Shown: in pieces, positions 32,149 to 47,207 of the stretch | Layout of the letters: every line of letters starts with the position of its first letter | Position numbering within the stretch: the stretch's first letter is position 1 | Origin: a bacterium | Lineage (GTDB): Bacteria > ARS69 | Reading direction: 5' to 3' | DNA: 47,207 bases | NCBI GenBank assembly: GCA_025774805.1 | Contig: JALGZR010000011.1 | Span: forward strand, 1-47,207 | Made by a program: the position numbers and the translations under genes | Notes under the pieces: generated by a model | What the model was told of the DNA's origin: nothing | What the model saw: only the letters and a program-made list of their open reading frames with translations | Database searches by the model: none

Positions 32149-34383
32149 TTACGCTCCCAACCCCAGTCCCCGGTACGCGATCGCGACGCCGAGACAGACG
32201 ATCAAGCCCAGACCGAGGGGCAACAGGACCGACACCCAAGTCCAGCGCGCGCTCCCGGTCTCCCTCCAGATCGTGAAGATCGTCGTGGAGCAGGGATTGT
32301 GCAGAAGGCTGAACAGCATCAGGTTCACCGCGGTGAGCGTCGTCCATCCTCCCGCCCGGAGGATCCGCTCGGTCGCCGGGGCCGACTCGAGCTCGAACAT
32401 GACGCCGGCGCCCTCTCCGACGCCGGCCAGCCCCGTCGTCAGAACGGTGAGCATGAGCACGGTGGGGATCACGATCTCGTTCGCGGGAATCGCCACCAGG
32501 TAGGCGAGCAGGATCACGCCGTTCAATCCCAGGAACAGTCCGACCGGGTCGAGCCGATCGATCAGCCACCCGGCCAGGGACGTGTCGCCGACCGGTACGT
32601 TCGCCGACGTCCAGATCACGAGACCCGCCGGAGCGGCGAAGAGCACCGCGCGCCAGAGCACGAAGATCGTGCGATCGATGAGAGACGTGTAGAGCGTCTG
32701 GAGGAGGCGCGGAGGTCGGTAGGGCGGAAGCTCGAGGCTGAAGGTGGAGACCTCGCCCTTGAGGATCGTCCGCGAAAGGCCCCAGGACGCGAGGAGCGTG
32801 ATCGCGATCCCCAAGAGGGCGACACCGACCACCGCCCCGGAGGCGATCAATCCCGAAAGATGGGCGGGGACGAGAGCCCCCAGGAAGATCGACGCGACGA
32901 GAATCTGCGTGGGCCAGCGTCCGTTGCACAGCGCGAAGTTGTTCGTGAGGATCGCGATCAGGCGCTCCCGCGGACTGTCGATGACACGCGCCGCGATCAC
33001 TCCCGCGGCGTTGCAGCCGAAGCCCATCGACATCGTGAGGGCCTGCTTGCCGTGCGCCCCCGCCCGGCGGAACAGGTGATCGAGGTTGAACGCGACGCGG
33101 GGCAGGTAGCCGAAGTCCTCGAGGATCGTGAAGAGCGGGAAGAAGATCGCCATCGGAGGGAGCATCACGCTGACCACCCAACCGATGCTGAGGTAGACTC
33201 CGTCTACGAGCGCGCCGGACAGCCACCAGGGCGCGCCGATCCACTCCGCGAAGCTCTTCAGGGCCGGATGGCCGACGTCCAGGAAAACGTGGGCCAGCCA
33301 CGAGGAGGGGACGTTCGCGCCCGCGACCGTGATCCACATCACCCCCCCGAGAAGCGCCAGCATCATCGGGAATCCCGTGAGCCGGCTCGTGACGAGGCGG
33401 TCCAAGGCGCGGTCGAGATCGAAGCGGGGTCCTCCGTCCGGGCGGGACAGCGCGCGGTCCGCGATGCGCGCCGCCTCGGCGAAGAGCGTCTCCATGAGCG
33501 AGTCGTGGAATCGGGGGCCGGCCTCCCAGCGGAACTCACGCGCCGCCTGGAGTAGACCTCGGAGACGGTGGGGAGAGAGAGGGATGCTCTCATTGTTCGT
33601 GCTGAGCTCCCCACCGAGCTCGCCCTCGCGGAGAGCACCGACGATACGCCGGTCCCCCTCCAGAAGTCGCATCGCGACCCATCGGGCATTCGGCAGGGAG
33701 GGAAACGTCTCCTCGACCCGGGACACGAGCCCCGCGAGCGCCCGGTCCAGTTCCGTCGACCCGGCGCCGAACCGACGGGGAGCGGTTCGGACGGCCCCCG
33801 ACGCCACGCCGGAGATCGTCCGGATCAACTCGTCGATGCCCTCGCCGGTGCGGGCCGCGGCCGGCACCACCGGGACCCCGAGGTCCTTCGCCAGCCTCCT
33901 CACGTCCACTCGAAGGCCACGCCGCCGGGCCTCGTCCACGAGATTGAGGCAGATCACGACGCGATCCGTGATCTCGAGGACCTGAAGCGCGAGGTTCAGG
34001 TTGCGCTCCAGGCAGGTCGCGTCGATCACGACGACGGTCACGTGCGGTTGCCCGAAGAGCAGGAAGTTGCGCGCGATCTCCTCGTCCCGGCTCTGCGAGA
34101 GGAGCGAGTAGGTGCCGGGGAGGTCCACGAGCCGGAACCGCGTGTCCCCGTAAGAGAAGGCGCCCTCCGCCCGCGACACGGTCTTTCCCGGCCAGTTGCC
34201 GGTATGCTGCCGAAGCCCGGTCAGGCGATTGAAGACCGTGCTCTTCCCCGTGTTCGGGTTGCCGGCGAGGGCGACGACGCGGTCTCCCTCCTGCACGTCG
34301 AGACCGTGGCGGACGAGGCCGGCGACCTCGGGCGCGGCGGCCGGACAGGACTCGCAGGCGGATCCCGCGCCCCGCGCCGTCAT
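32149..34383 (-). CDS. feoB: FeoB-type metal transporter with G domain
   Basis: GTPase-gated divalent metal importer of the inner membrane. 744 residues. The G domain shows GNPNTGKST (41-48), T61 in the switch, DLPGTYSLL (87-95) and NLVDE (147-151). From ~340 on there are about eight to ten membrane helices with two gate regions. A Cys pair (CESC, 10-13) precedes the G domain. The first gate reads GCNAAGV and NNFALCNGRWPT, differing from the GCxVPA/PFMSCSARLP pattern of classical FeoB, so the metal (Fe or Mn) is open. The ATG overlaps the stop of the DtxR-FeoA gene in ATGA. Its stop is 91 bases from the IS91 remnant. Confidence 0.9.
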   Translation of the reverse strand: MTARGAGSACESCPAAAPEVAGLVRHGLDVQEGDRVVALAGNPNTGKSTVFNRLTGLRQHTGNWPGKTVSRAEGAFSYGDTRFRLVDLPGTYSLLSQSRDEEIARNFLLFGQPHVTVVVIDATCLERNLNLALQVLEITDRVVICLNLVDEARRRGLRVDVRRLAKDLGVPVVPAAARTGEGIDELIRTISGVASGAVRTAPRRFGAGSTELDRALAGLVSRVEETFPSLPNARWVAMRLLEGDRRIVGALREGELGGELSTNNESIPLSPHRLRGLLQAAREFRWEAGPRFHDSLMETLFAEAARIADRALSRPDGGPRFDLDRALDRLVTSRLTGFPMMLALLGGVMWITVAGANVPSSWLAHVFLDVGHPALKSFAEWIGAPWWLSGALVDGVYLSIGWVVSVMLPPMAIFFPLFTILEDFGYLPRVAFNLDHLFRRAGAHGKQALTMSMGFGCNAAGVIAARVIDSPRERLIAILTNNFALCNGRWPTQILVASIFLGALVPAHLSGLIASGAVVGVALLGIAITLLASWGLSRTILKGEVSTFSLELPPYRPPRLLQTLYTSLIDRTIFVLWRAVLFAAPAGLVIWTSANVPVGDTSLAGWLIDRLDPVGLFLGLNGVILLAYLVAIPANEIVIPTVLMLTVLTTGLAGVGEGAGVMFELESAPATERILRAGGWTTLTAVNLMLFSLLHNPCSTTIFTIWRETGSARWTWVSVLLPLGLGLIVCLGVAIAYRGLGLGA

Positions 34384-35402
34384 GGCCGGACCTCCCCTTC
34401 GCGTTCGACCCGGATCCACCGTGCCTGGTCCTCCCGCAGCGCGATCAGGCTGCCGCGCACCCGGTACGCGATCGGATCACCGCCCGCGCTCGACATCTCC
34501 GCCGCCACGACCGTTCCGGGAACGAGACCCAGGTCGAGGAGCCGCCTGCGCTGCGGGCCGACGCAACCCGGTGAAATGCCGACGACCTGCGCCACATCCC
34601 CCGGGGCGAGCGAGGCCAGCGTCTCGAAGCGCTCCTCGGACGGCGCTTCCCCCGCGAGCGGAAGGACGGTGACGTTCGCCGCCGCCACCGGGGAGAGCTC
34701 GAGGCTCCTCCCTTCGGTGAGGAGCCGGAGCCGCCCGGGAGACGCCTCGACCATCTGCAGCGTCATGCCGACGTGCAGGTTCCGGTCGACGAGCTGGGCG
34801 TAGAGCGTCTCCGGCTCGTCCTCGAGGTGCACGATCGTGCCCTGCGCCCCTCGAGGAAGAGCGGGAAGGGGCACCCCGCGCTGCGGGGGCAACTCTCCAG
34901 AAGCCGTGGGAATCGGGTCTCCGTGCGGGTCCCAGGCGGGCTGGCCCATGCGCGCCGCGAGCGCCTCCGTCTCCTCCGCCGACATCCGGTGCTCTCGCTT
35001 CTCCGCCCGCCGGTGCCACTCGATCTCGTCCACCCCCGTCTCCTCGGCGAGGTACCGTTCCCAGAGACGATGAACCCGGAGAATCCGCCGGGCGTAAGCC
35101 CGCCCGTCCGCGGTGAGCCGCAGCGCGGTCCCCTCGCGGTCGACCAGGCGCCCGTACTCGAGATCCTCGACGACCCGGGCCGCCTGGTCCCCCGTCACCT
35201 CCATTGCTCCGGCGAGACTCTCGATCGTGGCCGGCAGGTCCCGGTATTCGGCGTCGTGGAGGTGCTTGAGCGCGTCCTCGATCCGGACCCGCCGCCGCCC
35301 CGGCCGCGCCCGCCCGGAGCGCCGTCCCCGAAGCAAGAAGATCGCGGCGAGCACGAGGGCGATCCCCGAGAGCAGGAGAAACAGGAGAGACAGGCTCGTC
35401 AT
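34380..35402 (-). CDS. Membrane-anchored DtxR/MntR-type regulator fused to two FeoA-like domains
   Basis: 340 residues. Residues 4-24 (LSLLFLLLSGIALVLAAIFLL) are one membrane helix followed by a basic stretch. Residues ~40-100 form a DtxR winged helix (ALKHLHDAEYRDLPATIESL, then VVEDLEYGRLV). Residues ~105-165 form the metal/dimer domain (RILRVHRLWERYLAEE, REHRMSAEE, WDPHGDPIP). Two FeoA/SH3-like domains follow (~180-250 and ~265-337; second with CVGPQRRRLLDLGLVPGT). The ATG at 35402 has GGTGGGA upstream. It is upstream of and coupled to feoB, so it may be both the FeoA partner of FeoB and a metal sensor. Whether it still binds DNA is unknown. Confidence 0.8.
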   Translation of the reverse strand: MTSLSLLFLLLSGIALVLAAIFLLRGRRSGRARPGRRRVRIEDALKHLHDAEYRDLPATIESLAGAMEVTGDQAARVVEDLEYGRLVDREGTALRLTADGRAYARRILRVHRLWERYLAEETGVDEIEWHRRAEKREHRMSAEETEALAARMGQPAWDPHGDPIPTASGELPPQRGVPLPALPRGAQGTIVHLEDEPETLYAQLVDRNLHVGMTLQMVEASPGRLRLLTEGRSLELSPVAAANVTVLPLAGEAPSEERFETLASLAPGDVAQVVGISPGCVGPQRRRLLDLGLVPGTVVAAEMSSAGGDPIAYRVRGSLIALREDQARWIRVEREGEVRP

Positions 35403-35431
35403 CGACAATCCCACCCGGCGGCACGGGACCT

Positions 35432-35503
35432 CGCCCGCACGTCTCATCGGCCTCGGCGGCCGGCCGCCGCCTCGCGACGAGCCGGTGAGAGGTGCAGACT
35501 GGT
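35432..35503. repeat. Dispersed palindromic repeat, copy 5, in the feo leader
   Basis: Left arm 35432-35455 (CGCCCGCACGTCTCATCGGC) and right arm 35477-35503 (CCGGTGAGAGGTGCAGACTG) are imperfect inverses with a ~22-base loop. It sits 30 bases upstream of the DtxR-FeoA start, between that gene and the palindromic operator, so it would be part of the 5' leader if the transcript starts near the operator. Confidence 0.8.
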
Positions 35504-35508
35504 TGAAC

Positions 35509-35540
35509 TTGACTAGCGACCTGAGTTTAACCTAGGTTAA
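35509..35540 (+). promoter_or_regulatory. Promoter with DtxR/MntR-type operator
   Basis: TTGACT (35509-35514) and TAGGTT (35533-35538), 18 bases apart, form a sigma-70 promoter for the + strand regulator gene. The perfect palindrome TTAACCTAGGTTAA (35527-35540) covers the -10 box. AACCTAGGTT-type palindromes resemble DtxR/IdeR/MntR boxes. Placed between two metal-regulator genes, it is the likely site of metal-dependent repression of one or both. Confidence 0.65.
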
Positions 35541-35608
35541 TAGAGATCGGGATCTCGGGCAAGTCCCTTGAGCCCGGGGTCGCCTCCCCCCCGAGCCCGG
35601 AGGAGCGT

Positions 35609-36274
35609 TTGTTCGGTGCCGCCGTCGAGGACTACCTGAAGTCCATCTACGAGCTCTCGGTCCGGTCGGAGCGCGTCACCCCCTCCGCCGTGGCCCAGGC
35701 GCAGGGCGTCTCCGTGGCCGCGGTCACGAAGATGGTCCGGCGTCTCAGGGAGCTCCGCCTGGTCCGATACGAGCGATCCACGGGCATCGAGCTGACCCCC
35801 GCCGGTCGCCGGGTCGCCCTCGAGATGATCCGGCACCACCGCCTCATCGAGCTCTACCTCAAGGAGGCGCTCGGCTACACGTGGGACTGCGTGGACGAGG
35901 AGGCGGAAAAGCTCGAGCACGTCATCTCGGAGGAGCTCGAGGAGCGGATCGACCGGATGCTCGGCCATCCGACCCACGATCCGCACGGGGCCCCCATCCC
36001 CACGAAGGACGGGAAGATCGACACGACGCGCCATCCCGCCCTGATCGATCTCGAGCCGGGGCAAAAGGCGAGGGTCCGGCAGGTCCCCGACGGCGATCCC
36101 GCCCGTCTGCGCTACCTCGGGACGCTCGGGCTCTATCCCGACACGCCGATCGAGCTCGTCGGGCGCGATCCCTTCGGAGGACCTCTCCACCTCCTGGTGG
36201 ACGGCGAGAGCCGCTCGATCGGGGAGGATCTCGCCCGCAGCATTCTCGTCTCGCCGGGAGACGGGACCGGCTGA
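35609..36274 (+). CDS. DtxR/MntR-family metal-dependent repressor
   Basis: 221 residues. Winged helix at 1-65 (VEDYLKSIYELS, GVSVAAVTKMVRRLREL), dimer/metal domain ~68-140 (MIRHHRLIELYLKEALGY, EEAEKLEHVISEEL, HPTHDPHGAPIP), C-terminal FeoA/SH3-like domain ~148-217. By alignment with B. subtilis MntR, D8, the His in RHH, and E, E, H of EEAEKLEH are kept, but position 11 is Lys instead of Glu. The start is TTG with GGAGG five bases upstream; no ATG exists in the open frame. It is divergent from the feo operon across a palindromic operator. Mn or Fe specificity cannot be decided. Confidence 0.88.
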   Translation: MFGAAVEDYLKSIYELSVRSERVTPSAVAQAQGVSVAAVTKMVRRLRELRLVRYERSTGIELTPAGRRVALEMIRHHRLIELYLKEALGYTWDCVDEEAEKLEHVISEELEERIDRMLGHPTHDPHGAPIPTKDGKIDTTRHPALIDLEPGQKARVRQVPDGDPARLRYLGTLGLYPDTPIELVGRDPFGGPLHLLVDGESRSIGEDLARSILVSPGDGTG

Positions 36275-36851: not shown

Positions 36852-37355
36852 ATGCCGAAGCCCCAAACCGAGCGGCGCCGTCAGTTCATCGTCAACCGGG
36901 AGCTTCAGCTCAAGATCATACTCTCGGTGTCTCTGCCGATGCTCGTCATTCTCCTGATCGTCGTCGGGATCCAGCTCGCCCTCGATCACGGCGTACGGGC
37001 GGGAACGATCGCGGTGGATGCGACGATCTTCGGGATACCCGAGCGAATCGTCTCCGTCGTGCTCTTCTTCCTCTTCGCGACCCTGTTCTACGTCATGTTC
37101 GCCCTCAACGTCTCCCATCGGGTCGCGGGAGCATCGTATCGTCTGTCGGAGACGCTGAAGGCGTTTCAAAGGGGCGACCAGAAGGTTCGCGCCCGATTGC
37201 GGGATGGGGATCTGCACTTCGAGCTCGCGGACGACATCAACGCCTTCCTCGACTGGGTCGAGTCGCGCGACGCGGCGAACGTCGCGTACTCGGAAAAAGC
37301 CGACCCGGGCGCGGGCGATCCCTCGGAGGAGCCGGCGGGCATCGCGACCTCCTGA
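36852..37355 (+). CDS. Small two-helix membrane protein, HAMP-like
   Basis: 167 residues with AGGGAGGAATCC directly before the ATG. A basic N-terminus (RRRQFIVNRELQLK) is followed by one helix at ~17-42 (ILSVSLPMLVILLIVVGI), a short periplasmic loop, and a second at ~62-82 (VVLFFLFATLFYVMF). Then comes a HAMP-like cytoplasmic stretch (YRLSETLKAFQRGDQKVR, LADDINAFLDWVES). It looks like the sensory membrane part of a chemoreceptor or kinase without an output domain. It is convergent with the pilin operon; a link to it is only suggested by position. Confidence 0.7.
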   Translation: MPKPQTERRRQFIVNRELQLKIILSVSLPMLVILLIVVGIQLALDHGVRAGTIAVDATIFGIPERIVSVVLFFLFATLFYVMFALNVSHRVAGASYRLSETLKAFQRGDQKVRARLRDGDLHFELADDINAFLDWVESRDAANVAYSEKADPGAGDPSEEPAGIATS

Positions 37356-37420: not shown

Positions 37421-38731
37421 TCAGAGCTCCTTCCAGGCGAGCTGGGTCAGCGGCAGGCTGCTGCCGACGTAAGTCGCGATCGCGTCCTGACTGTACAGAA
37501 TCGTCGAGTTGCCCGCCGAGAAGGCGTCGGTCGTCGCTCCCCGCACGATGATGGCGCCGAGGATCCAGGCGGTTCCGATGATCTCGCAGTCCCCCTCCAC
37601 GAAAACGAGTCCTCGCCACACGAAGTTCCCGGCGATATCCATGTCCCCGTCGACGTAGATTAGCCCTTGTCCGTTGTTACCGTTGAACTTCTCGCCTGCG
37701 GTGGCGTGACCGTTCACGACGACGATGCCGTCCATGACCGCGGCGTCGTTGGCGCTCGTATAGTCGGGGTTGCTTCGAATCTCGTTCCACTCGGCGACCG
37801 AGAGACCGAGGTACTCCTCGACGTTGAAGAAGGCGTTCGCGCTCGAGGTGTCCGACCAGGCCGGAAAGCCCTCGAGGTCGCTCGCTCCTCCCGTGGCCGC
37901 GTCGTCTCCCGTCGTCTGGACCGCCACCAGACAGCCGGCAACCGCATCCATCGTCCGATTCGCGCACAGCTCGAAGGGCCGGCACGCCGGGATTCTCGTT
38001 CCCACCGGGGTGTTCATGTCGTGGTTGTGGCCGCAGCCGCACATGTTTCCCGTCAGGTCGACGGCGTTGTCGGAGATGATCGCGGCCGTGACGTTCACCG
38101 TGATCGGGACGTGCGTGACCTCCGTCTGGATCATGCGCCGGGCGCCGTTCAGGATCGCGGGAACGGTGATCACGTCGATCGGCATTCCCGAGACGAAGTT
38201 CTCCGGCGGGAATCGGTTTCCGTCGTAGCGAACGAGCTCCGGCGCCTCTCGAACTCCGTCCGCATCGAGGTCGACCCACTTGTGCTCGATCACGATGGGG
38301 GTGAGGCCCCCGTTCACATCGCCGTAGTGGAGCCAATCCGTGGAGGACTGGACCGTGGGAACCACGATCTCGGTGCCGACCGGGGCGGGAAGAGCGCCCG
38401 CGTCACTCAGGTAGACCTCCGTGCGCCAATCCGGATCCGGATTCACGGGATCGTCTCCGATGAAGGCGTCGAACGTGTAGGCGTTCGCCGTCACCATCGT
38501 GCCGGGGGAGAGATTCATCCGGCCGAGGACCTCCGAGATGCCGGCTTCCGCGACGTAGAGGGCGGCCGTGTGATTCCTCTGATTGTCCGCGATCTGGATC
38601 TCGGTGGTGGAGAAGATCATGAATCCGACGCTGAGAACGGCCAGGGCGCCCAGGATCATGAGCATGGAGACGAGTGCGACCCCGCGCTCTTCCTCCGGAC
38701 CGGACGCGACGTTTCGTGTGATTGCCTGCAC
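37421..38731 (-). CDS. PilX-like minor pilin
   Basis: 436 residues, last gene of the pilin operon. The N-terminus EERGVALVSMLMILGALAVL is a prepilin-like helix of the PilX N domain, followed by TTEIQIADNQRNHTAALYVAEAG as in PilX proteins. The long C-terminal part is beta-rich and ends with a repeated strand pattern (GLIYVDGDMDIAGNF, FVEGDCEIIGTAWILGAI). A Cys/His cluster CGCGHNHD (231-238) with further Cys at 250, 256 and 267 could bind metal or form disulfides. The GTG at 38731 is used: GAGGTGATA precedes it and overlaps the upstream stop. The likely role is priming or tip assembly of type IV pili. Confidence 0.82.
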   Translation of the reverse strand: MQAITRNVASGPEEERGVALVSMLMILGALAVLSVGFMIFSTTEIQIADNQRNHTAALYVAEAGISEVLGRMNLSPGTMVTANAYTFDAFIGDDPVNPDPDWRTEVYLSDAGALPAPVGTEIVVPTVQSSTDWLHYGDVNGGLTPIVIEHKWVDLDADGVREAPELVRYDGNRFPPENFVSGMPIDVITVPAILNGARRMIQTEVTHVPITVNVTAAIISDNAVDLTGNMCGCGHNHDMNTPVGTRIPACRPFELCANRTMDAVAGCLVAVQTTGDDAATGGASDLEGFPAWSDTSSANAFFNVEEYLGLSVAEWNEIRSNPDYTSANDAAVMDGIVVVNGHATAGEKFNGNNGQGLIYVDGDMDIAGNFVWRGLVFVEGDCEIIGTAWILGAIIVRGATTDAFSAGNSTILYSQDAIATYVGSSLPLTQLAWKEL

Positions 38732-38741
38732 GCTTATCACC

Positions 38742-41711
38742 TCACTGTCCGAAGTAGACGACCAACTCGCCACTCTGCACCGCCGTGCGGGTTCCGACCG
38801 CGATGTCTTCGAGTCCGTCGATGTTGAAATCGCTGATGGTGAGAGTCACGACCTCTCCCGATCCCGCGTGGGACCACTCGGTGCCGGAGCTCGGAAGATA
38901 TCCGAAGCTCCGATACACGTTCAGGGCGCCCGCGTACTGGGTCGTGCGAATCCCCGCGACCACGTCCGGGAAGATGTCGGGATCGAACCGGGCCAGACCG
39001 AGCGAGAGCACTTCCCCTCCGCTGTCGATCCAGTCGTCCCGAAGTCCGGCCGCGCCGAACGTGGCCTTCCCGGACTCGATCTCGTTGAGCCACAGCTCGA
39101 CCCCTCCCGCCCCGGCGGCCCTCGAAGTTCCGACCACGAGGTCGACGTCCCCGGAATCGTCTTCGCGCATGTCCGCCGAGCTCAGGGAGAGAACGGCCCC
39201 CTCCGTCCACAGGACCGAGGACACGGTCCACGTCCACGGCAGGTCGAAGTCCCCGTCGTCCCCGGCGACGAAAACGGTGACCCTCCCCTGGTAGCCCCCC
39301 ATGTCCTGCCCCACGGCCATGTCGGGAAAGCCGTCGCGGTTGAAGTCCGCGACCTCGATCGCGGTGATCTCTCCGAGCCCGCCGGCCGAATCGTGGTGAA
39401 GATCGCTGGTGATCAGGTGGCTGTAGGCGAGGGGCGCGCTCTCGATCCAGATCTCGACGTGCCCCGATCCCGATCCGTCGACGGTCCCGACGAGCAGGCA
39501 ATCGGAGAAGAGGTCCGGCCACCCGCTCTCCGCGAGCGAGAGGACGGTGGATCCGAGATCGGCCGCGAAGGTCGCGGACGGAGTCACCGGGAAGGTGCCT
39601 CGCCCCCCTCCCCCCGACTGGGTCACCCAGAACACGATGTTCGGCGACGTGCCGACGTCGAGTCCGGTCAAGACGTCGGGGACGCCGTCGCCGTTGGCGA
39701 AGATCTCGAGCAGGGTCGGAATGGGGTGTCCGGTCGCGCGCGAGAATGTCGGAGTGGGCGAGAACAGGGCGGTGATCGGGGTAGCGGAGTTCCTCCGCTG
39801 GTTGTGCCAGACATGGAGATTGTCGGATCCGGCGGACAGCTGCGTTCCCAGGATGATGTCGACATCCCCCTTGTTGTCCTCCTCCAGATCCACCGCCTCG
39901 ATCGAGAGTGCCCGATCCGTTTGACCGACGGTCACGACCGTGAAGTTCACGGAGGAGTCGAGGATGTCCCCGAAGTCCACGACAATGGTGCTGTCGGCGG
40001 GCAGGTGGACGCTTCTCACCGTATTGGGGGTCGTCGAGGAGTAACCCGACAGATCCTCCTCGTACATGTCGTAGTTCCCGGAGGGGAGCGCGAACGCGTA
40101 CTCGCCCGACCCGTTCGTGACGGTCGAGTCGAGGAAGGATCCCCTGGATGCGAGAATCGGAACGTCCGGGATTCCGGGCTCCCCTCCGTCGTGGACACCG
40201 TCCTCGTCCTCGTCCAGGAAGACGACGCCGCGGATCGTCCCCGATCCCGTGACGAGGATATCCCCGAAGTTCACGACCTCGACCTGGCCGTCGGCGGTCA
40301 GGACGACCTCCACCGCATTGGAAGTCGTCGACGCCCAGCCCACCGAGTCGGTCTCCACCACCGTGTAGGCCCCGACGGGAACCTCGAACGAGTAGAGACC
40401 TTCCATCCCGGTCGTGTCCGTCATGCCGGTGTGCAGGGAGACGACGACCTCCTCGATTCCGCGCTCTCCGACGTCGAGGGCGGCGTTGCGGTTCGCGTCC
40501 TCGAAAACCTTTCCCCGGATGGTCCCGACCCCCGAGCCGGGCCGATCCCCGAATTCGGTCACGACCGTCTGTCCGGTCGTGACCGCGACGTTGAGAACGT
40601 TGGGCGTCGTCGACAGGTATCCCGGCGGATCGAACTCCGTCACGGTGTAGCTTCCCGGACTGGTCTCGAAGTGGAACTGCCCCATCGCCGTCGTTTCGAA
40701 CGACTCCCCCGTGCTGAGTCGTACCACCACGTCCGGAATCGGAGGCTCGTGGGCCGGATCGAAGACCTGGTCCCCATTCGAGTCCTGGAACACGGTCCCG
40801 ACGATCAAACCGCTTCGCCGCATCTGATTCCGGAAGGAGACCGAAGAGATCAGGTTCCGAGTGCGGTAGTCGGGCCGCCCGCCGGTGTCCCCGTCCTCGG
40901 TCGTCAAGGTCGTCACGACGCGGGTCACGAGCGCGAGGTCGGCCGCCGGGATCGGCGCGAGGAACGCGATCTCCGCCTGCGAGAGTTTCCCGTCCGAATC
41001 GACGTCGCCGTGAAGCACCTCGGGGGTTGCCGGATCGTTGTCGTCGTCGAGAAAGTACGTGAAGAGGGGAGTCGGCAGGGTGCCGTCCGGATCGGGAACG
41101 GGTCCGCGGACGAGCCCCATGTTCTCGCCGGTCCCTCCGTTCGTCCCGTCCCCCCGGTCCCCGTAGACCTCCTTGCGGAGGACGAAGTCCCGAGGATTGG
41201 GCGTGGCCTCCTCGAGGTCGTCCCCCTGATCGGCGCTGCCGACCGCGCCGTCCCCGTCGGAGTCCAGCGTGTATCGAATAGTCTCGGCGCCGGTCGCGAA
41301 GGTGGTGGTCGGAACGTAGAGTGACCCGCCCGGGGGAACGGTCGCGGGCCCCGCCGCGAGGTTGATGGCGCCCGGGAATCCCGGGGCCATCGGATCATCC
41401 TGCGCGGGTGAGATGTTCGCGTTGAAGATGATGTCCCACGGGCCGGCATGGACGAGGCCCCTCTGACCGGACCCCATGTCCAGACCGAACCCGGTCGAAC
41501 GGAGATCCCCCGTGACGAGGTCGACGGCGATCCGCGTGCTCTGCTGGCGGTCGCCCTGCTCCACTGCGCTTCGCGACAGCCTCCGGCTGTTCTGAAACGC
41601 CTGAATGCCGATGACGAGAAGAACCGAGAGCACCGTGAGCGAGACCATCACCTCGATCGCTGTGAATCCCCGGCTCGAACCAGAGGGCGGTCTTCCGAGA
41701 TTCCGATACAC
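38742..41711 (-). CDS. Giant PilW-like prepilin with three SdrD-B repeats and FG-GAP repeats
   Basis: 989 residues, against ~250-350 for usual PilW. RGFTAIEVMVSLTVLSVLLV (14-33) is a class III prepilin signal with Glu5. Residues ~40-300 fit a PilW-type head. Three SdrD-B/Cna-B-like repeats follow at ~302-389, 396-484 and 491-583, each with a Gx(V/I)FxDxNxDxxxDxxE start and a closing VxxFGD. Residues ~596-989 are FG-GAP/VCBS-like repeats (DLEEDNKGDVDIILG, DFNRDGFPDMAVGQDMGG, DFNIDGLEDIAVGTRT), probably a calcium-binding beta-propeller. The GTG at 41711 has AGGAGG six bases upstream. The predicted role is an adhesive minor pilin at the pilus tip. The fusion is one uninterrupted frame. Confidence 0.85.
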   Translation of the reverse strand: MYRNLGRPPSGSSRGFTAIEVMVSLTVLSVLLVIGIQAFQNSRRLSRSAVEQGDRQQSTRIAVDLVTGDLRSTGFGLDMGSGQRGLVHAGPWDIIFNANISPAQDDPMAPGFPGAINLAAGPATVPPGGSLYVPTTTFATGAETIRYTLDSDGDGAVGSADQGDDLEEATPNPRDFVLRKEVYGDRGDGTNGGTGENMGLVRGPVPDPDGTLPTPLFTYFLDDDNDPATPEVLHGDVDSDGKLSQAEIAFLAPIPAADLALVTRVVTTLTTEDGDTGGRPDYRTRNLISSVSFRNQMRRSGLIVGTVFQDSNGDQVFDPAHEPPIPDVVVRLSTGESFETTAMGQFHFETSPGSYTVTEFDPPGYLSTTPNVLNVAVTTGQTVVTEFGDRPGSGVGTIRGKVFEDANRNAALDVGERGIEEVVVSLHTGMTDTTGMEGLYSFEVPVGAYTVVETDSVGWASTTSNAVEVVLTADGQVEVVNFGDILVTGSGTIRGVVFLDEDEDGVHDGGEPGIPDVPILASRGSFLDSTVTNGSGEYAFALPSGNYDMYEEDLSGYSSTTPNTVRSVHLPADSTIVVDFGDILDSSVNFTVVTVGQTDRALSIEAVDLEEDNKGDVDIILGTQLSAGSDNLHVWHNQRRNSATPITALFSPTPTFSRATGHPIPTLLEIFANGDGVPDVLTGLDVGTSPNIVFWVTQSGGGGRGTFPVTPSATFAADLGSTVLSLAESGWPDLFSDCLLVGTVDGSGSGHVEIWIESAPLAYSHLITSDLHHDSAGGLGEITAIEVADFNRDGFPDMAVGQDMGGYQGRVTVFVAGDDGDFDLPWTWTVSSVLWTEGAVLSLSSADMREDDSGDVDLVVGTSRAAGAGGVELWLNEIESGKATFGAAGLRDDWIDSGGEVLSLGLARFDPDIFPDVVAGIRTTQYAGALNVYRSFGYLPSSGTEWSHAGSGEVVTLTISDFNIDGLEDIAVGTRTAVQSGELVVYFGQ

Positions 41712-41725
41712 CGTCTGCCTCCTGT

Positions 41726-42127
41726 TCACCGCGACAGGTACGTCGAGATCTGTACGTTGCGGGGGATTCCGTTGTCCGTGTAGCTCACGGCAAGGTCGAT
41801 GCTCTTCATTCCGGCCAGGGGAACGTCGTCGGTCACGCTCCACGCGCGGGAGTACACGCCCTGGATCGGATTGCCGGCATCTACGTGCGTACCCGCCGTG
41901 AGATCCGGGTCCGTCCGGGGAAGCGCCTTGAGGCGCTCGATCTCGTCCTGCGCCAGACTGGAAGCGATCGACATCTTCCCGCTCTTCTGCACCGAACGCA
42001 TTCCGAGAGGGAAGAGGCTCAGGAAGCCGAGCATCAGCATTCCGAAGAACGTCATGGCGATGATCAGCTCGATGAGGGAGAACCCTTCGTCGGTCCTTCT
42101 CGGGAGAAGGCGTCGAAACCGTTTCAC
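41726..42127 (-). CDS. PilV-like minor pilin
   Basis: 133 residues. DEGFSLIELIIAMTFFGMLM is a clean prepilin signal (cleavage after Gly15, Glu5 present). The rest (SSLAQDEIERLKALP, PIQGVYSRAWSVTDDVP, SIDLAVSYTDNG) is the short PilV-type head. The GTG at 42127 overlaps the upstream stop in GTGA, and the gene ends 14 bases before pilW. It is expected to join FimT, PilW and PilX in the initiation complex of a type IV pilus or type II-like pseudopilus. Confidence 0.85.
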   Translation of the reverse strand: MKRFRRLLPRRTDEGFSLIELIIAMTFFGMLMLGFLSLFPLGMRSVQKSGKMSIASSLAQDEIERLKALPRTDPDLTAGTHVDAGNPIQGVYSRAWSVTDDVPLAGMKSIDLAVSYTDNGIPRNVQISTYLSR

Positions 42128-42639
42128 GGAAGAACCTCCGTGTTTCCCGTCATGGTGTTGATACGTATGGTCTTCGAGCGTCCCCGCCCATCCACGATCT
42201 GGACATCACCGGTCTGCGACGTCGTGCCGTTGGGGCGGAACGTCATCCGGTTCCCCCCCCAGTTCACGTTCAGCAGGGAGACGCCGACGTCCATCAGGTA
42301 GGGACCGAGCGTCTTTTCTCCGGCGTCCTGCACTCCGTCGGCGTCGCGGTCTTCGAAGATGGTGAACCGGTCATTCGTGGGAGCGAGGGTGACCACGTAG
42401 GGCACCTTCTCCCGGACCGCCAGCTGCCGGGTCAGGAACATCTTGCTCGTCATCTCGTTCACGTCCGCATTGAAGCGATAGCCCTCCACGGTGGATCGCA
42501 GGCTGGGAATCGAAGCGGCGAGCACCATTCCGAGGACCGTGACGGTGATCAGCAGCTCCAGGAGGGTCATGCCGTTCTGGGACGTCACGAGACACGACTG
42601 GCGGTCGCTCGTGGAATGGATTCGCATCGCCTCTCTCAC
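42124..42639 (-). CDS. FimT/GspH-type minor pilin
   Basis: 171 residues, first gene of the pilin operon. QNGMTLLELLITVTVLGMVL is a prepilin signal in which Met follows the cleaved Gly and Glu5 is kept. The head fits GspH/FimT (ADVNEMTSKMFLTRQLAVRE, NRMTFRPNGTTSQTGDVQI). The GTG at 42639 has AAGGAG eight bases upstream; the ATG four codons later is an alternative. A sigma-54-type promoter lies ~75 bases upstream. Confidence 0.87.
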   Translation of the reverse strand: MREAMRIHSTSDRQSCLVTSQNGMTLLELLITVTVLGMVLAASIPSLRSTVEGYRFNADVNEMTSKMFLTRQLAVREKVPYVVTLAPTNDRFTIFEDRDADGVQDAGEKTLGPYLMDVGVSLLNVNWGGNRMTFRPNGTTSQTGDVQIVDGRGRSKTIRINTMTGNTEVLP

Positions 42640-42732: not shown

Positions 42733-42907
42733 GACCTGAGCGATCAGCTAACCACCGCCTTCAACAGCGTGAGCGGGTTTCCGCAATGATCGCCAAACGG
42801 CGTCGTGGAGTGCTTTCCCGCCCGTAACAATGAGCTTGAAGCAGAGGTAATGGTCTCGGGGACGCCGGAGGGGAATGCGCGGGGAGAAGGGTGAGGAGAT
42901 CGAATCG

Positions 42908-43258
42908 CTACCGGGTGCTCCCGAGCTCGGTCAGCGCGGCCGCGATCCGCTCTCCGAGCACCCGGGGTTGATCGAGATAGGGCTTCGTCCAGGCCTCCCA
43001 CTCCTCGTCACTCAGATGCGTTCCCGGAAGAAGGTCGAGCGCCGCCCGGAAGGAATCGGGCTGTGCGGTGTGGAGGCGGGAGAGGCGGATGACCTCTCCG
43101 TAGTAGTCGAGGAAGTCCCCGCACCTCTCCTCGATCGCGAGGGTCTCCGGGGACTTCTCCGGCGCCGAAGAGTCCCCCCCGAGCCGACAGGACGGGGCCA
43201 GCAGCGCGACGCCCGCCAGGGCGAACCGGGCCCAGGTCGAAATCGTCCGCGCGCGCAT
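42908..43258 (-). CDS. Small lipoprotein of unknown function
   Basis: 116 residues. ALAGVALLAPSCRLGGDS is a lipoprotein signal with the lipidated Cys at residue 24. The mature part is short, acidic and helical (LAIEERCGDFLDYYGEVIRL, SDEEWEAWTKPYLDQP). GGGGAGGG precedes the ATG. It is divergent from the TamA-like gene, with repeat copy 6 between them. No family was recognised. Confidence 0.65.
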   Translation of the reverse strand: MRARTISTWARFALAGVALLAPSCRLGGDSSAPEKSPETLAIEERCGDFLDYYGEVIRLSRLHTAQPDSFRAALDLLPGTHLSDEEWEAWTKPYLDQPRVLGERIAAALTELGSTR

Positions 43259-43277
43259 CGAAGCCCTCCCCGGCCGG

Positions 43278-43356
43278 GCGAGCCCGCATCTCTCACCGGG
43301 CTCTGCGGCGGCCGCGGCTCCCCGCGCGGCGAGCCCGGTGAGAGGTGCAGGCTAGC
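43278..43356. repeat. Dispersed palindromic repeat, copy 6 (best-preserved long arms)
   Basis: Left arm 43278-43303 (GCGAGCCCGCATCTCTCACC and GGGCTC) and right arm 43331-43356 (GAGCCCGGTGAGAGGTGCAG and GCTAGC) are 26-base inverses with three mismatches, loop 27 bases and itself GC-rich. It lies between the divergent lipoprotein gene and the TamA promoter. Confidence 0.88.
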
Positions 43357-43414
43357 ACCGCTCCCAACCCGTTGCCACCCAAGAGGTTCGCCTCCGATTC
43401 CCCGCGCCGACTCG

Positions 43415-43443
43415 TTGACACTCCCGTGGCCCTTTGCTAGGGT
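43415..43443 (+). promoter_or_regulatory. Sigma-70 promoter of the tamA-tamB operon
   Basis: TTGACA (43415-43420) and TAGGGT (43438-43443) are 17 bases apart, with TGC before the -10 box. The start would be near 43450, giving a ~190-base leader. That leader begins with a strong hairpin, GCGGCCGGG-N5-CCCGGCCGC (43460-43482), whose loop is T-rich. Confidence 0.7.
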
Positions 43444-43639
43444 GCCGCGCGGCCGGCCCGCGGCCGGGGTTTTCCCGGCCGCCTCCGAGTCCATCCGGGA
43501 CGGTCCGGCCCGATCGACCTGCCGGACCGGCCCCTCCCGCCCGCGTCCTCCGGCTCCCCTCCCCTCCGCCGGGGCGGTCGGAAAGGCGGACCGCCGTCCG
43601 TTCCGGCGCTACCCTCTCCCCGAGGTGGAGAGAGCACCG

Positions 43640-45559
43640 ATGGGCTTTTGGCGCCGTCCGTTCCGGTGGGCTTCACAGGCCGCGTTCCTGGTCTTCGCGG
43701 TGGGAACGTGCGCCACGCCTTCCCGGTCCGAGTCGTGGACCGAGACCCGCCCCGAGGACGTAGCCCGGTTCAGCTTGGAGCGCATCTCGTTCGAGGGGAG
43801 CTTCGCGACCCCGACGGGAGAGCTCGAGGACGTCATCAAGTCCTCCACCTCGGGCATCTTCCGTTTCCGGCCGGTGAATCTCGAGCGTCTCGAGGGGGAC
43901 GTGTTGCGCCTGCGCAATCATCTTCGACGGCGCGGCTACTGGAACGCACAGATTCACCTTCGAATCCTCTTCGAGCACGAGAAGCGGCGGACCCACGCGA
44001 TCTTCGAGATCACGGAGGGAGCGCAGAGATTCGTCGGAGACGTGCACGTGCAGGGGAACCAGACGTTCGACACGGGGGAGATCGCCTCGTGGACCGAGCA
44101 AATGCCGGGTGAGCCCTTCGATCTCAGCTCGACCGATCGGGATCGCACAAGCATCGAGAACCGGTACGCCAACGAAGGGTTTTACCTGGTACGGGTCGTC
44201 GCCGACATCCAGACGGCCGAGGCCCCGGGGGACTCGATCGTTCACGATCTGGTGCACCGGATCTCGGAGGGCCCCCGTTTCTTCGTGGGCTCGATCTCGT
44301 TCGCCGGGAACGAGTTCACGAAAGAGGAGATCCTCCGGCGCGAGATCACTCTGAGCCCGGGCGAGATCCTCAGCCGCGAGCGCATCGACGAGAGTCGGGC
44401 CCGCCTCTACGCGACCGGCTACTTCTCCCGGGTGGAGATCCTGCCGCAGGACGTGGAGGCGAGCCGCGGCGAGATCGACGTCGTCGTGCGGGTCGTGGAG
44501 CGGACCATGCGGTTCGTCGGAGCCGGCGTGGGCTACGGGACGCGGGACCAGCTTCGGCTCTCCGGCGAGTGGGGACACCGCAACCTGTGGGGGCGGGGCA
44601 AGCGCGCGAACGTTCGCGGCATCCTCGCCTCCGAGCTCTTTCCGGCCGATCTGGTGCGGACCCGCCTTGAGGGGCGCTACGTCGAGCCCCGGCTGTTCGA
44701 GACCCGGACGACCGCGACCGCGGAGCTCTTCTACGAGCGGAGACGAGAGCTCTTCAACGTCGGGGCCGAGGAGGGCGAGTACGATCTGAGCCTCGTGGGG
44801 CTCATCACGAACCTGAACCGACCGCTCACGCGATTCACGCGGGGATGGGTGTCGGTCGAGAACGAATGGGCCGATCTCGACGCCGGATCGGGGACGCGGC
44901 CCCCCGACTCGGAGCGTCCCGATCTGACGCGGACGATCACCCTCACGCTGGAGCGCGATCGACGCAACGACTACTTCAATCCGGAGAAGGGGTTTCTGAA
45001 CCGCCTCATCGGAAGCGTATCGGGAGGGCTGCTCGGAGGGGACAACGACTTCTGGAAGACGCAGCTCGAAATGAGCTGGTTCCGCCTTCTCCGCAGCACG
45101 ACGCTGGCCGGGCGCGTCCGGGTCGGATACGAGCGGACGTTCGGCCAGTCGGAGACGGTGCCCGACCGGCAACGATTCAAGCTCGGCGGCTCCACCTCGG
45201 TGCGCGGGTATCGGGAGCGGGAGATCGGACCGGGTGACTTCCTGCTCCTGTCGAACGTGGAAGCGCGTTTCCCCCTGTTCTGGATCGTGGGGGGGGCCAT
45301 CTTCGTGGACGGCGGCAATGCCTGGGAGGAACCGACGGAGGTTCGGTGGAAGGACTTCCGGATCGACACCAAGGACGATCCGGCACGCTCGGCGGAGACC
45401 GACTTCCGGTACGCGGTGGGGGCGGGTGTTCGTCTGAGGACTCCGGTCGGGCCGGTGCGCCTCGACTGGGGGTGGAAGTTGAAGCGGCTTCCGGTCGAAC
45501 CCGACGAGGACGAGGAGGATCGATGGCGTCTGCACCTGAGCCTGGGGAACGTGTTCTGA
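43640..45559 (+). CDS. tamA: Omp85-family outer-membrane protein, TamA-like
   Basis: 639 residues. Residues 1-30 are a signal peptide (AAFLVFAVGTCATPSRS). Three POTRA-like domains follow: ~46-118, ~120-200 (RFVGDVHVQGNQTFDTGEI) and ~205-285 (RFFVGSISFAGNEFTKEEI, RARLYATGYFSRVEIL). From ~295 to the end is a 16-stranded-type barrel with the Omp85 lid motif GGSTSVRGYRE at about 516-526 and a terminal aromatic (SLGNVF). Three POTRAs and a downstream tamB favour TamA over BamA, which has five. It acts in insertion of outer-membrane proteins or in lipid transport with TamB. The ATG at 43640 is used; GGAGAGAG lies upstream and the longer extension lacks a signal peptide. Confidence 0.88.
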   Translation: MGFWRRPFRWASQAAFLVFAVGTCATPSRSESWTETRPEDVARFSLERISFEGSFATPTGELEDVIKSSTSGIFRFRPVNLERLEGDVLRLRNHLRRRGYWNAQIHLRILFEHEKRRTHAIFEITEGAQRFVGDVHVQGNQTFDTGEIASWTEQMPGEPFDLSSTDRDRTSIENRYANEGFYLVRVVADIQTAEAPGDSIVHDLVHRISEGPRFFVGSISFAGNEFTKEEILRREITLSPGEILSRERIDESRARLYATGYFSRVEILPQDVEASRGEIDVVVRVVERTMRFVGAGVGYGTRDQLRLSGEWGHRNLWGRGKRANVRGILASELFPADLVRTRLEGRYVEPRLFETRTTATAELFYERRRELFNVGAEEGEYDLSLVGLITNLNRPLTRFTRGWVSVENEWADLDAGSGTRPPDSERPDLTRTITLTLERDRRNDYFNPEKGFLNRLIGSVSGGLLGGDNDFWKTQLEMSWFRLLRSTTLAGRVRVGYERTFGQSETVPDRQRFKLGGSTSVRGYREREIGPGDFLLLSNVEARFPLFWIVGGAIFVDGGNAWEEPTEVRWKDFRIDTKDDPARSAETDFRYAVGAGVRLRTPVGPVRLDWGWKLKRLPVEPDEDEEDRWRLHLSLGNVF

Positions 45560-45560
45560 G

Positions 45561-47207
45561 ATGAGAGTCCCTGCGCGCGCTATGAGGATCTCCCTGATCT
45601 GGCTGCTGGTGGTCGTTGCGGTGCTGATCTCGGGGATCGCCGCGATCCTGGAGACCGGAGTCCTCACGCCGTACCTCCTCGCGTGGGCCAACTCCCGTCT
45701 CGAGCGGGAGGGCGGCCTCCACGTCGAGGCCTCGTCGTTCTTCCTCCACCCCTGGAGCGGGCTCACCCTCAACGACGTCTGGGTCACCGTGCCCTCCGGG
45801 CGCGCCGGGACCGGCGCCGCGGCGGAGTCCGTCGTGATCGCCGGGTCCGAGGAGGTCGAGGCGGCGCCCCCCTCTCCTCCCGCCCCGGCGTTCGGAGGGG
45901 CTCCCCGGAACCACGTCTTCTCCGTGGGACAGATCGAGGTGGGGTTCCGCGTCTCCGGACTCCTCCGCGGAACCCCGAGGCTGAGCCGGGTAAAGCTGGT
46001 TCGACCCGATCTCGACGTGGAGGAGCTGCTGCAATGGGCAAGGGGGCGCGCCGAGTCCCGGTCCCCCGACCCGACCCGGGAGAAGAGACGGCGCGCCCGC
46101 CGAGGACTGGGGATCGAGGACCTCCGCATCGTCGAGGGCCGCGTGGAAGGACTTGCCGGCGGCACCCTCCGGGGACTTCGGCTGATCGGCCGGCTCGCCG
46201 GCGGGGAGAGCGAGTGGCGTCTCCTCGTCGACGAAGCCGGTACGCGTCTCCATGCCGATCGGATCGACGAGGACCTCGAGATGACCGGCGAGCTGGTCTA
46301 CCGGGAGGGGACGATCCGGTTCGACGGTCTCCACCTCGGGGTCGCGGGAGGCCGGCTCCGGCTGGAGGGAACCGTCGACCCGGGGGGGGACGGGAACCAC
46401 TTGCTCGCGAGCGCCTGGTCGCTTCCGCTCGAACGCCTCGGATCGTGGTTCGGCGTGGAGCACGAGCTGCTGCGGACCGACTTGGAGTGCCGCTTCCTCG
46501 CCACCGGCCGGCCCGATTCCCTGACCGTTCGCGGCGGTCTCCACGGAACCACTGAAGACGGAGTTCGTCGAGAGCTTCATCTGACCGGGCTAGTGCGCCC
46601 CGAGCGCCTCGGGATCGAGTCCCTCCGCCTGATCAGTGGAGAGTCACGGGCCGACCTCGAGGGATCCCTGACCTTCGGAGAGCGACCGGGGGTCGCCGGG
46701 GTCGCGGTCTTTCACGACTTCGATCCGGCGGCGGTGCTGGCCCAGGACGCCTTCGGCGGGATCACCGACTTCGACGGAGTCGTCCACTTCGAGGGATCGG
46801 GGGATCCCCGCGAGTCTTTCGACGGGGACGCCCGACTCCGCCTCACGAGCGCGACGCTCTTCGGCTACCCCGTCGACTCGGGCACGATTTACATGCAGAT
46901 CCGCGATCGCGAGGTGGAGGTGACGGGAGCCCGGCTGTCCCGCAAGAGCTCGGTGATTGTCGGCGTCGGATCGATCGACTCCGACGGTGAGGTCGTCGCG
47001 GAGCTCACCGGGACGATCGAGGACCTCGCCGACTGGGGAATGTCCGCCGAAAGCGTCGTTCCGAGGCTCGGGGGGCGGGCGGCTGCGGAGGTGCTTCTTC
47101 TCGGTCCGATCGACGGCCCGAGTCTCGAGGCGACCTTCACACTGGCCGACGCGACGATTCTCGGAGCGAGGGCAAGACACCTCGAGCTCGAGCTGTTCAC
47201 CGACCGC
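45561..47207 (+). CDS. tamB: TamB-like (AsmA/YhdP superfamily) protein, 3' end cut by window
   Basis: 549 codons without a stop up to the last base; the gene continues beyond the window. The ATG follows the tamA stop by one base. Residues 9-30 (ISLIWLLVVVAVLISGIAAI) are the single inner-membrane anchor. The rest is a repetitive beta-strand pattern of the AsmA/TamB kind (LHVEASSFFLHPWSGLTLND, LRLEGTVDPGG, ADLEGSLTFGERP), forming a lipid-conducting periplasmic groove. A low-complexity Pro/Ala insert occurs at ~95-112. TamB spans from inner membrane to TamA and carries phospholipids to the outer membrane. Confidence 0.85.
   Translation, partial: MRVPARAMRISLIWLLVVVAVLISGIAAILETGVLTPYLLAWANSRLEREGGLHVEASSFFLHPWSGLTLNDVWVTVPSGRAGTGAAAESVVIAGSEEVEAAPPSPPAPAFGGAPRNHVFSVGQIEVGFRVSGLLRGTPRLSRVKLVRPDLDVEELLQWARGRAESRSPDPTREKRRRARRGLGIEDLRIVEGRVEGLAGGTLRGLRLIGRLAGGESEWRLLVDEAGTRLHADRIDEDLEMTGELVYREGTIRFDGLHLGVAGGRLRLEGTVDPGGDGNHLLASAWSLPLERLGSWFGVEHELLRTDLECRFLATGRPDSLTVRGGLHGTTEDGVRRELHLTGLVRPERLGIESLRLISGESRADLEGSLTFGERPGVAGVAVFHDFDPAAVLAQDAFGGITDFDGVVHFEGSGDPRESFDGDARLRLTSATLFGYPVDSGTIYMQIRDREVEVTGARLSRKSSVIVGVGSIDSDGEVVAELTGTIEDLADWGMSAESVVPRLGGRAAAEVLLLGPIDGPSLEATFTLADATILGARARHLELELFTDR

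Follow-up and report, generated by a model that had tools for sequence, protein, structure and literature searches.

The window, that is the whole stretch of 47,207 nt of DNA analysed here, from an uncultured bacterium, contains a minor-pilin gene whose product joins a PilW-like pilin head, a stalk of three SdrD_B-like domains and a seven-bladed FG-GAP propeller (Table 1). As judged from the sequences compared, the three parts lie in one frame, have been conserved jointly over five phyla and have stayed in the same four-gene cassette, a tight FimT/GspH-PilV-PilW-PilX operon in which the fusion gene is third and neighbouring genes overlap or almost abut. We hypothesize, with somewhat better than even confidence, that the product is a modular minor pilin at the PilW (GspJ-like) position of the FimT-PilV-PilW-PilX tip complex of a type IVa pilus. 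Diderm type IV pili are usually accounted for by a very large tip adhesin, PilY1, that is a protein of its own; in some type IV pili the tip adhesin is probably contained in a pilin instead. If true, this would be a second way to arm the pilus tip, with the propeller as part of a pilin and the cassette conserved in phyla that are poorly studied, and the covalent linkage would fix the relation between pilin and propeller and make that relation testable.

Table 1. Position and supporting evidence of the fusion gene, its parts and its cassette partners
Feature	Position	Strand	Evidence
Fusion gene (PilW-like head + three SdrD_B-like domains + seven-blade FG-GAP propeller, 989 aa)	38742..41711	-	ORF, SD, Pfam, homologues
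Prepilin signal (SRG↓FTAIE) and pilin head, residues 1-295	40827..41711	-	N_methyl 23.8 bits; TIGR02532; unfused heads end at same boundary
Stalk, three SdrD_B/CarboxypepD_reg-like domains, residues 296-585	39957..40826	-	SdrD_B 1.8e-26; SdrD structures 2e-19 by profile
Seven FG-GAP blades, residues 586-989 (likely propeller)	38745..39956	-	FG-GAP over cut-off, seven repeats, propeller model, VIA Z 29-31
FimT/GspH-like minor pilin, first in cassette, 4-base overlap with pilV	42124..42639	-	GspH 37.1 bits, cut-off 21
PilV/GspI-like minor pilin	41726..42127	-	type_IV_pilV 3.4e-7, below cut-off; N_methyl over cut-off
PilX/GspK-like minor pilin, ~440 aa, 3' neighbour, start GTG 38740 or 38731	37421..38740	-	PilX_N 0.0042, below cut-off; conserved cassette partner

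The single frame described in the earlier note was recovered with exact coordinates, running on the minus strand from GTG at 41711 to TGA at 38742 without an internal stop. The start is supported by the sequence aggagg 6 bases 5' of the GTG, and the pilV stop lies 14 bases upstream of that codon. GC3 is even over the fusion gene and its cassette (0.82-0.86), and in a comparison with genome G002 pN was about half of pS in the stalk and propeller. Of the modules named from the sequence alone, the prepilin signal, the three SdrD_B repeats and the FG-GAP region, were found in this one chain above their Pfam cut-offs, the domain composition of a modular pilin with SdrD_B and FG-GAP behind a pilin head. 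The prepilin signal reads SRG↓FTAIEVMVSLTVLSVLLVIGI, and N_methyl (PF07963, residues 13-34; cut-off 21.2) is joined by TIGR02532 (23.5 bits, cut-off 16.3). SdrD_B matched in three stretches at about residues 299-583 (92.9 bits, cut-off 29.7), as it did somewhere in each of the eight members of our alignment, and FG-GAP scored 39.6 bits against a cut-off of 22.1.

The blade repeats number seven, starting at residues 601, 664, 723, 782, 840, 901 and 954 with a spacing of 53-63 residues, and seven are likewise present in the homologues at loci L027, L047 and L048. The DxDxDG-type candidate calcium sites to which the earlier note drew attention vary among the blades: a canonical loop (DxNxDG) is present in blades 4 (residue 789) and 7 (residue 961), a variant in blades 1, 2, 5 and 6, and none in blade 3. 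A PDB search with the single protein sequence gave no match, but a profile of eight homologues matched solved structures in the sequence of the chain: a pilin, geopilin, at 1.3e-4, then SdrD at 2e-19 and then integrin alpha-V at 5.9e-5. Structure prediction was a partial success. AlphaFold2 modelled the propeller alone at low confidence (mean pLDDT 53.8, pTM 0.65, one of five models converging), whereas stalk and propeller together (residues 296-989, two sequences as input) came out unfolded, with a pLDDT of 28.6. The propeller model aligned to many propellers, integrin alpha headpieces being among the best (VIA Z 29-31, rmsd 3.1-3.6, 341-355 residues aligned, spanning residues 3-404) and WD40 propellers scoring similarly, so that membership of the integrin type is argued from the FG-GAP sequence signature and not from the model. 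Taken with the sequence, this modest model makes it likely that residues 586-989 are a propeller, and gives a weak indication that it folds as a seven-bladed, integrin-like one. Tandem SdrD_B domains with DxNxD-type loops, serving as a spacer, are shared with the B repeats of staphylococcal Sdr/MSCRAMM proteins; those proteins are anchored to the cell wall by sortase, whereas in the fusion protein the anchor is a pilin. With the propellers of integrin alpha and the VCBS superfamily (PMC8023676) the C-terminal part has in common seven FG-GAP blades and DxDxDG-type loops in some of them, but identity in the structural alignments is 10-15% and most blades here have no canonical calcium loop.

Full-length homologues, with 29-55% identity over all parts and the same cassette, are present in five phyla and number at least 25 genomes, so that the stalk and propeller are in fact built into a minor pilin, as had been proposed, and other fusions of this architecture exist. 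A search of 290 genomes found them in G138, G176, G270, G133 and G198; in G002 the C-terminal 637 residues lie at a contig end and are followed by the same PilX. The count of five phyla is based on the family lists of the phyla of G000 (the source genome's list), G138, G198 and G133 being disjoint, with the family of G176 in none of these. An alignment of eight sequences is collinear along the full length, and phylum-wise counts made with it gave the fusion in seven of the eight genomes of the G138 phylum (some as contig-end fragments), 17 of the 47 of the G198 phylum (two of the 17 in two frames or pieces) and seven of the ten of the G133 phylum. One relative, BQJX01, is labelled Gemmatimonadota bacterium DHS20C21. 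Head, stalk and propeller distances correlate across 30 proteins (Mantel, r 0.92-0.94), which argues that the parts have been inherited as a unit.

The head is described as PilW-like because of gene order, homology to unfused heads and its place in a tree, and not because of a curated family model: at E values up to 1, the searches listed neither a PilW nor a GspJ model for this protein. The order FimT(H)-PilV(I)-PilW(J)-PilX(K) was found in the window and in related loci. The profile built from the heads of the fusion family matches unfused PilWs from PilY1 cassettes, and in the two of these that were tested N_methyl was the sole Pfam match. Unfused heads of about 290 residues at loci L053 and L054 end where the stalk starts in the 989-residue protein, and at L055 a head is joined to a different C-terminal extension of about 880 residues. 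A stalk-less version also exists: eight genomes of the G198 phylum match the full propeller only, and the six such loci read (L115-L120) have head and propeller with SdrD_B absent, L115 having a Gly/Ser/Thr run at the position of the stalk. As the head is found as a separate gene, with the propeller alone and with another C-terminus, it appears to behave as a carrier for differing C-terminal parts, in keeping with the carrier-effector idea proposed for modular pilins and PilY1 in PMC8179133. The head also contains two EF-hand-like loops, DSDGDGAVGSAD at residues 150-161 (41229-41264, minus strand) and DVDSDGKLSQAE at residues 236-247 (40971-41006, minus strand), the first of them mostly conserved among homologues, unfused heads included.

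Our current working hypothesis is that, after cleavage behind Gly15, the head would use its N-terminal helix to join the three remaining minor pilins in a complex that initiates filament formation and is retained at the tip. The three SdrD_B domains would form a calcium-stiffened stalk holding the propeller ahead of the tip, where it could bind a surface, glycan or protein ligand, and PilT-driven retraction with the ligand bound would then pull the cell. In such a pilus the propeller would take the place that PilY1 has in classical cassettes, by way of a covalent stalk rather than non-covalent docking. We infer the tip location, the adhesion and the functional parallel with PilY1 by analogy: the filament is started by four minor pilins, which stay with PilY1 in a tip/priming complex (PMC7541494), and bulky modular pilins, which present adhesive modules probably at the tip, fit that location best (PMC8179133, PMC9934059). 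The PilW3 of Myxococcus xanthus gives some cause for caution, since sfGFP on PilW3 or PilY1.3 blocks function, in the case of PilW3 perhaps at the secretin (PMC7541494); a large PilW must therefore be able to pass, and added bulk is not harmless.

Modular pilins as such are known. According to PMC9934059 and PMC8179133, PilC (pilin + Ig-like + lectin) and PilB (pilin + vWA) of Streptococcus sanguinis also have C-terminal effector modules on a pilin head and are predicted at the tip, and in PilC an Ig-like module even precedes the lectin. Those proteins come from a monoderm and have one Ig-like module and a lectin or vWA effector, whereas the fusion has three SdrD_B domains, an FG-GAP propeller, a four-gene cassette and a genome in which no PilY1 was detected; the most extreme multi-domain pilin named in that survey has 860 residues, against 989 here. 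ComZ of Thermus (PMC6561018) likewise has a bulky module on a tip pilin, but in that case a DNA-binding beta-solenoid is inserted into the pilin fold. No description of pilins with FG-GAP or SdrD_B modules was found in the open-access literature searched, within which the pilin-stalk-propeller family is thus an undescribed, widely conserved variant, although such an architecture may be listed in the supplement to the modular pilin survey.

The suggestion in the earlier note that the fusion perhaps replaces PilY1 finds support for cassettes but not for genomes. A profile search with PF05567 (PilY1) matched neither the source genome nor the fusion protein, and no separate pilY1 was thus detected; this absence is judged against the 43 of 290 other genomes in which the same search found PilY1, and 14 control genomes were all without a match. 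The propeller of the fusion protein lies in frame with a prepilin head, and so it is not a separate, non-pilin protein of the PilY1 kind. Six genomes in the G198 phylum contain PilY1; where read, their PilY1 cassettes have the order FimT-PilV-PilW (~190 aa)-PilX (~160 aa)-PilY1 (~1000 aa), PF05567 being confirmed by Pfam in two of them. A PilY1 cassette is present in two of the 17 genomes with the three-part fusion and in four of the 30 others, which argues against mutual exclusion, and the two genomes concerned, G315 and G327, carry both kinds of cassette and refute it. The fusion therefore represents an alternative cassette and not a strict genome-level substitute; what the loci show, as read from their sequences, is replacement of PilY1 at the cassette level. 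In a tree of heads all fused heads lie apart from a single group (100/100) of PilWs from PilY1 cassettes, both branches being long and the rooting not given. As with PilY1/PilC and FimU-PilV-PilW-PilX of M. xanthus and Pseudomonas (PMC7541494, PMC13190605), the genes for four minor pilins and a seven-bladed propeller are clustered. In those systems the PF05567 propeller belongs to PilY1, which is secreted as a protein of its own and has variable N-terminal effectors, whereas the propeller here is of the FG-GAP type and covalently linked to PilW.

Most likely the fusion does in its own cassette what PilY1 does in the other, although functional equivalence would have to be reached by propellers of different families, the FG-GAP/integrin type and PF05567. 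A stronger version, in which the propeller substitutes fully for PilY1, also priming assembly and controlling retraction, so that the bacterium needs no PilY1, seems to us doubtful but deserving of serious consideration. It would fit the lack of PF05567 in the source genome and in the six further carriers within the 290-genome set, and of a PilY1 gene in every fusion cassette read; however, 247 of the 290 genomes have no PilY1 anyway, so that finding none in seven carriers has a chance probability of about one in three, and besides the difference in propeller family there are the two genomes with both. Returning to the modular pilin in an alternative cassette, it is tempting to speculate, at somewhat less than an even chance, that there are type IVa pili without PilY1 in which the four minor pilins alone form the priming/tip complex, with an integrin-like propeller on a variable PilW stalk, and that fusion and PilY1 cassettes side by side in one genome provide exchangeable tips. 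If the protein works as proposed, the natural set of stalked, linker, head-only and PilY1 cassettes would allow the contributions of stalk and propeller to priming, adhesion and retraction to be compared.

Alternatively, the cassette may supply the tip for a type II secretion-like pseudopilus or other type 4 filament, with the stalk and propeller binding or gating cargo and not surfaces. GspH is above its cut-off, the GspK model matches three of the eight PilX partners, and a further T2SSE ATPase with an MshEN domain (MshE-like) is encoded on contig 86 of the source genome. We consider this unlikely because a canonical type IVa pilus operon is present on contig 9 (PilB and PilT over NCBIfam cut-offs, with PilC-like, PilS/PilR-like and PilA-like genes), no type II secretion genes adjoin the cassette in the window, SdrD_B and FG-GAP are modules of surface adhesins, and the alternative cassette of the G198 phylum carries PilY1, a tip protein of type IVa pili. 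With a Tad-type ATPase locus also present beside the MshE-like ATPase, the type IVa machinery is the probable, and not the certain, assembling machine. A role of the extension in DNA uptake or mechanosensing instead of adhesion is rather improbable, given that FG-GAP propellers and SdrD_B domains typically bind proteins or glycans or act as spacers; it draws on ComZ, whose large beta-solenoid binds DNA (PMC6561018), and on a beta-helix-like match in the PilX-like partner (residues 347-417 of the longer frame) to one_C_dehyd_C, formylmethanofuran dehydrogenase subunit C, at 7.9e-4, below cut-off. Perhaps, going by this match, that part of PilX is a second module at the tip; the hints are weak, and no ComZ-like DNA-binding beta-solenoid is claimed. 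That an assembly or sequencing error joined two genes, a possibility left by the draft state of the source genome (284 contigs), can be dismissed, since independent full-length homologues in five phyla share identical junctions and GC3 is even across the parts of the gene (0.84-0.86).

The GspK and Verru_Chthon_A models also matched the PilX-like partner below cut-off. Like the Verru_Chthon four-gene cassettes (TIGR02596, TIGR02598-02600), the window has prepilin-like genes in a cassette, and each of its four proteins matches a different one of those four models; membership was rejected, as the matches are N-terminal only and all scores are far under the cut-offs. Variant arrangements were also seen: two tandem PilX genes, not one, at the stalk-less loci L115, L117, L118 and L119; head, stalk, propeller and PilX partner in one 1392-residue frame in G328 (L091:172-4347, minus strand); and a tandem pair of complete fusion cassettes in G315 (L136:621-11142), which has its PilY1 cassette elsewhere. 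Contig 197 of the source genome (L074:1-3452) contains a further minor-pilin cassette, truncated at either end of the contig, with FimT-, PilV- and PilW-like genes; right after the PilW stop, another frame encodes part of a protein containing four fn3 domains and one bacterial Ig domain, and the junction contains a 14-base near-repeat. It is possibly a second modular pilin whose frame has been broken. By reading of the surrounding window, a small membrane protein of two helices, ending in a HAMP-like tail (36852-37355, plus strand), is convergent with the end of the pilin cassette, and the region 32149-36274 holds a FeoB-like GTPase transporter (32149-34419, minus strand) adjoined by two DtxR/FeoA-like regulators (34380-35447, minus strand; 35609-36274, plus strand). 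On the other side, 42875-47207 encodes an Omp85/TamA-like outer-membrane protein with POTRA-like repeats and then a TamB/AsmA-like protein that runs past the end of the window.
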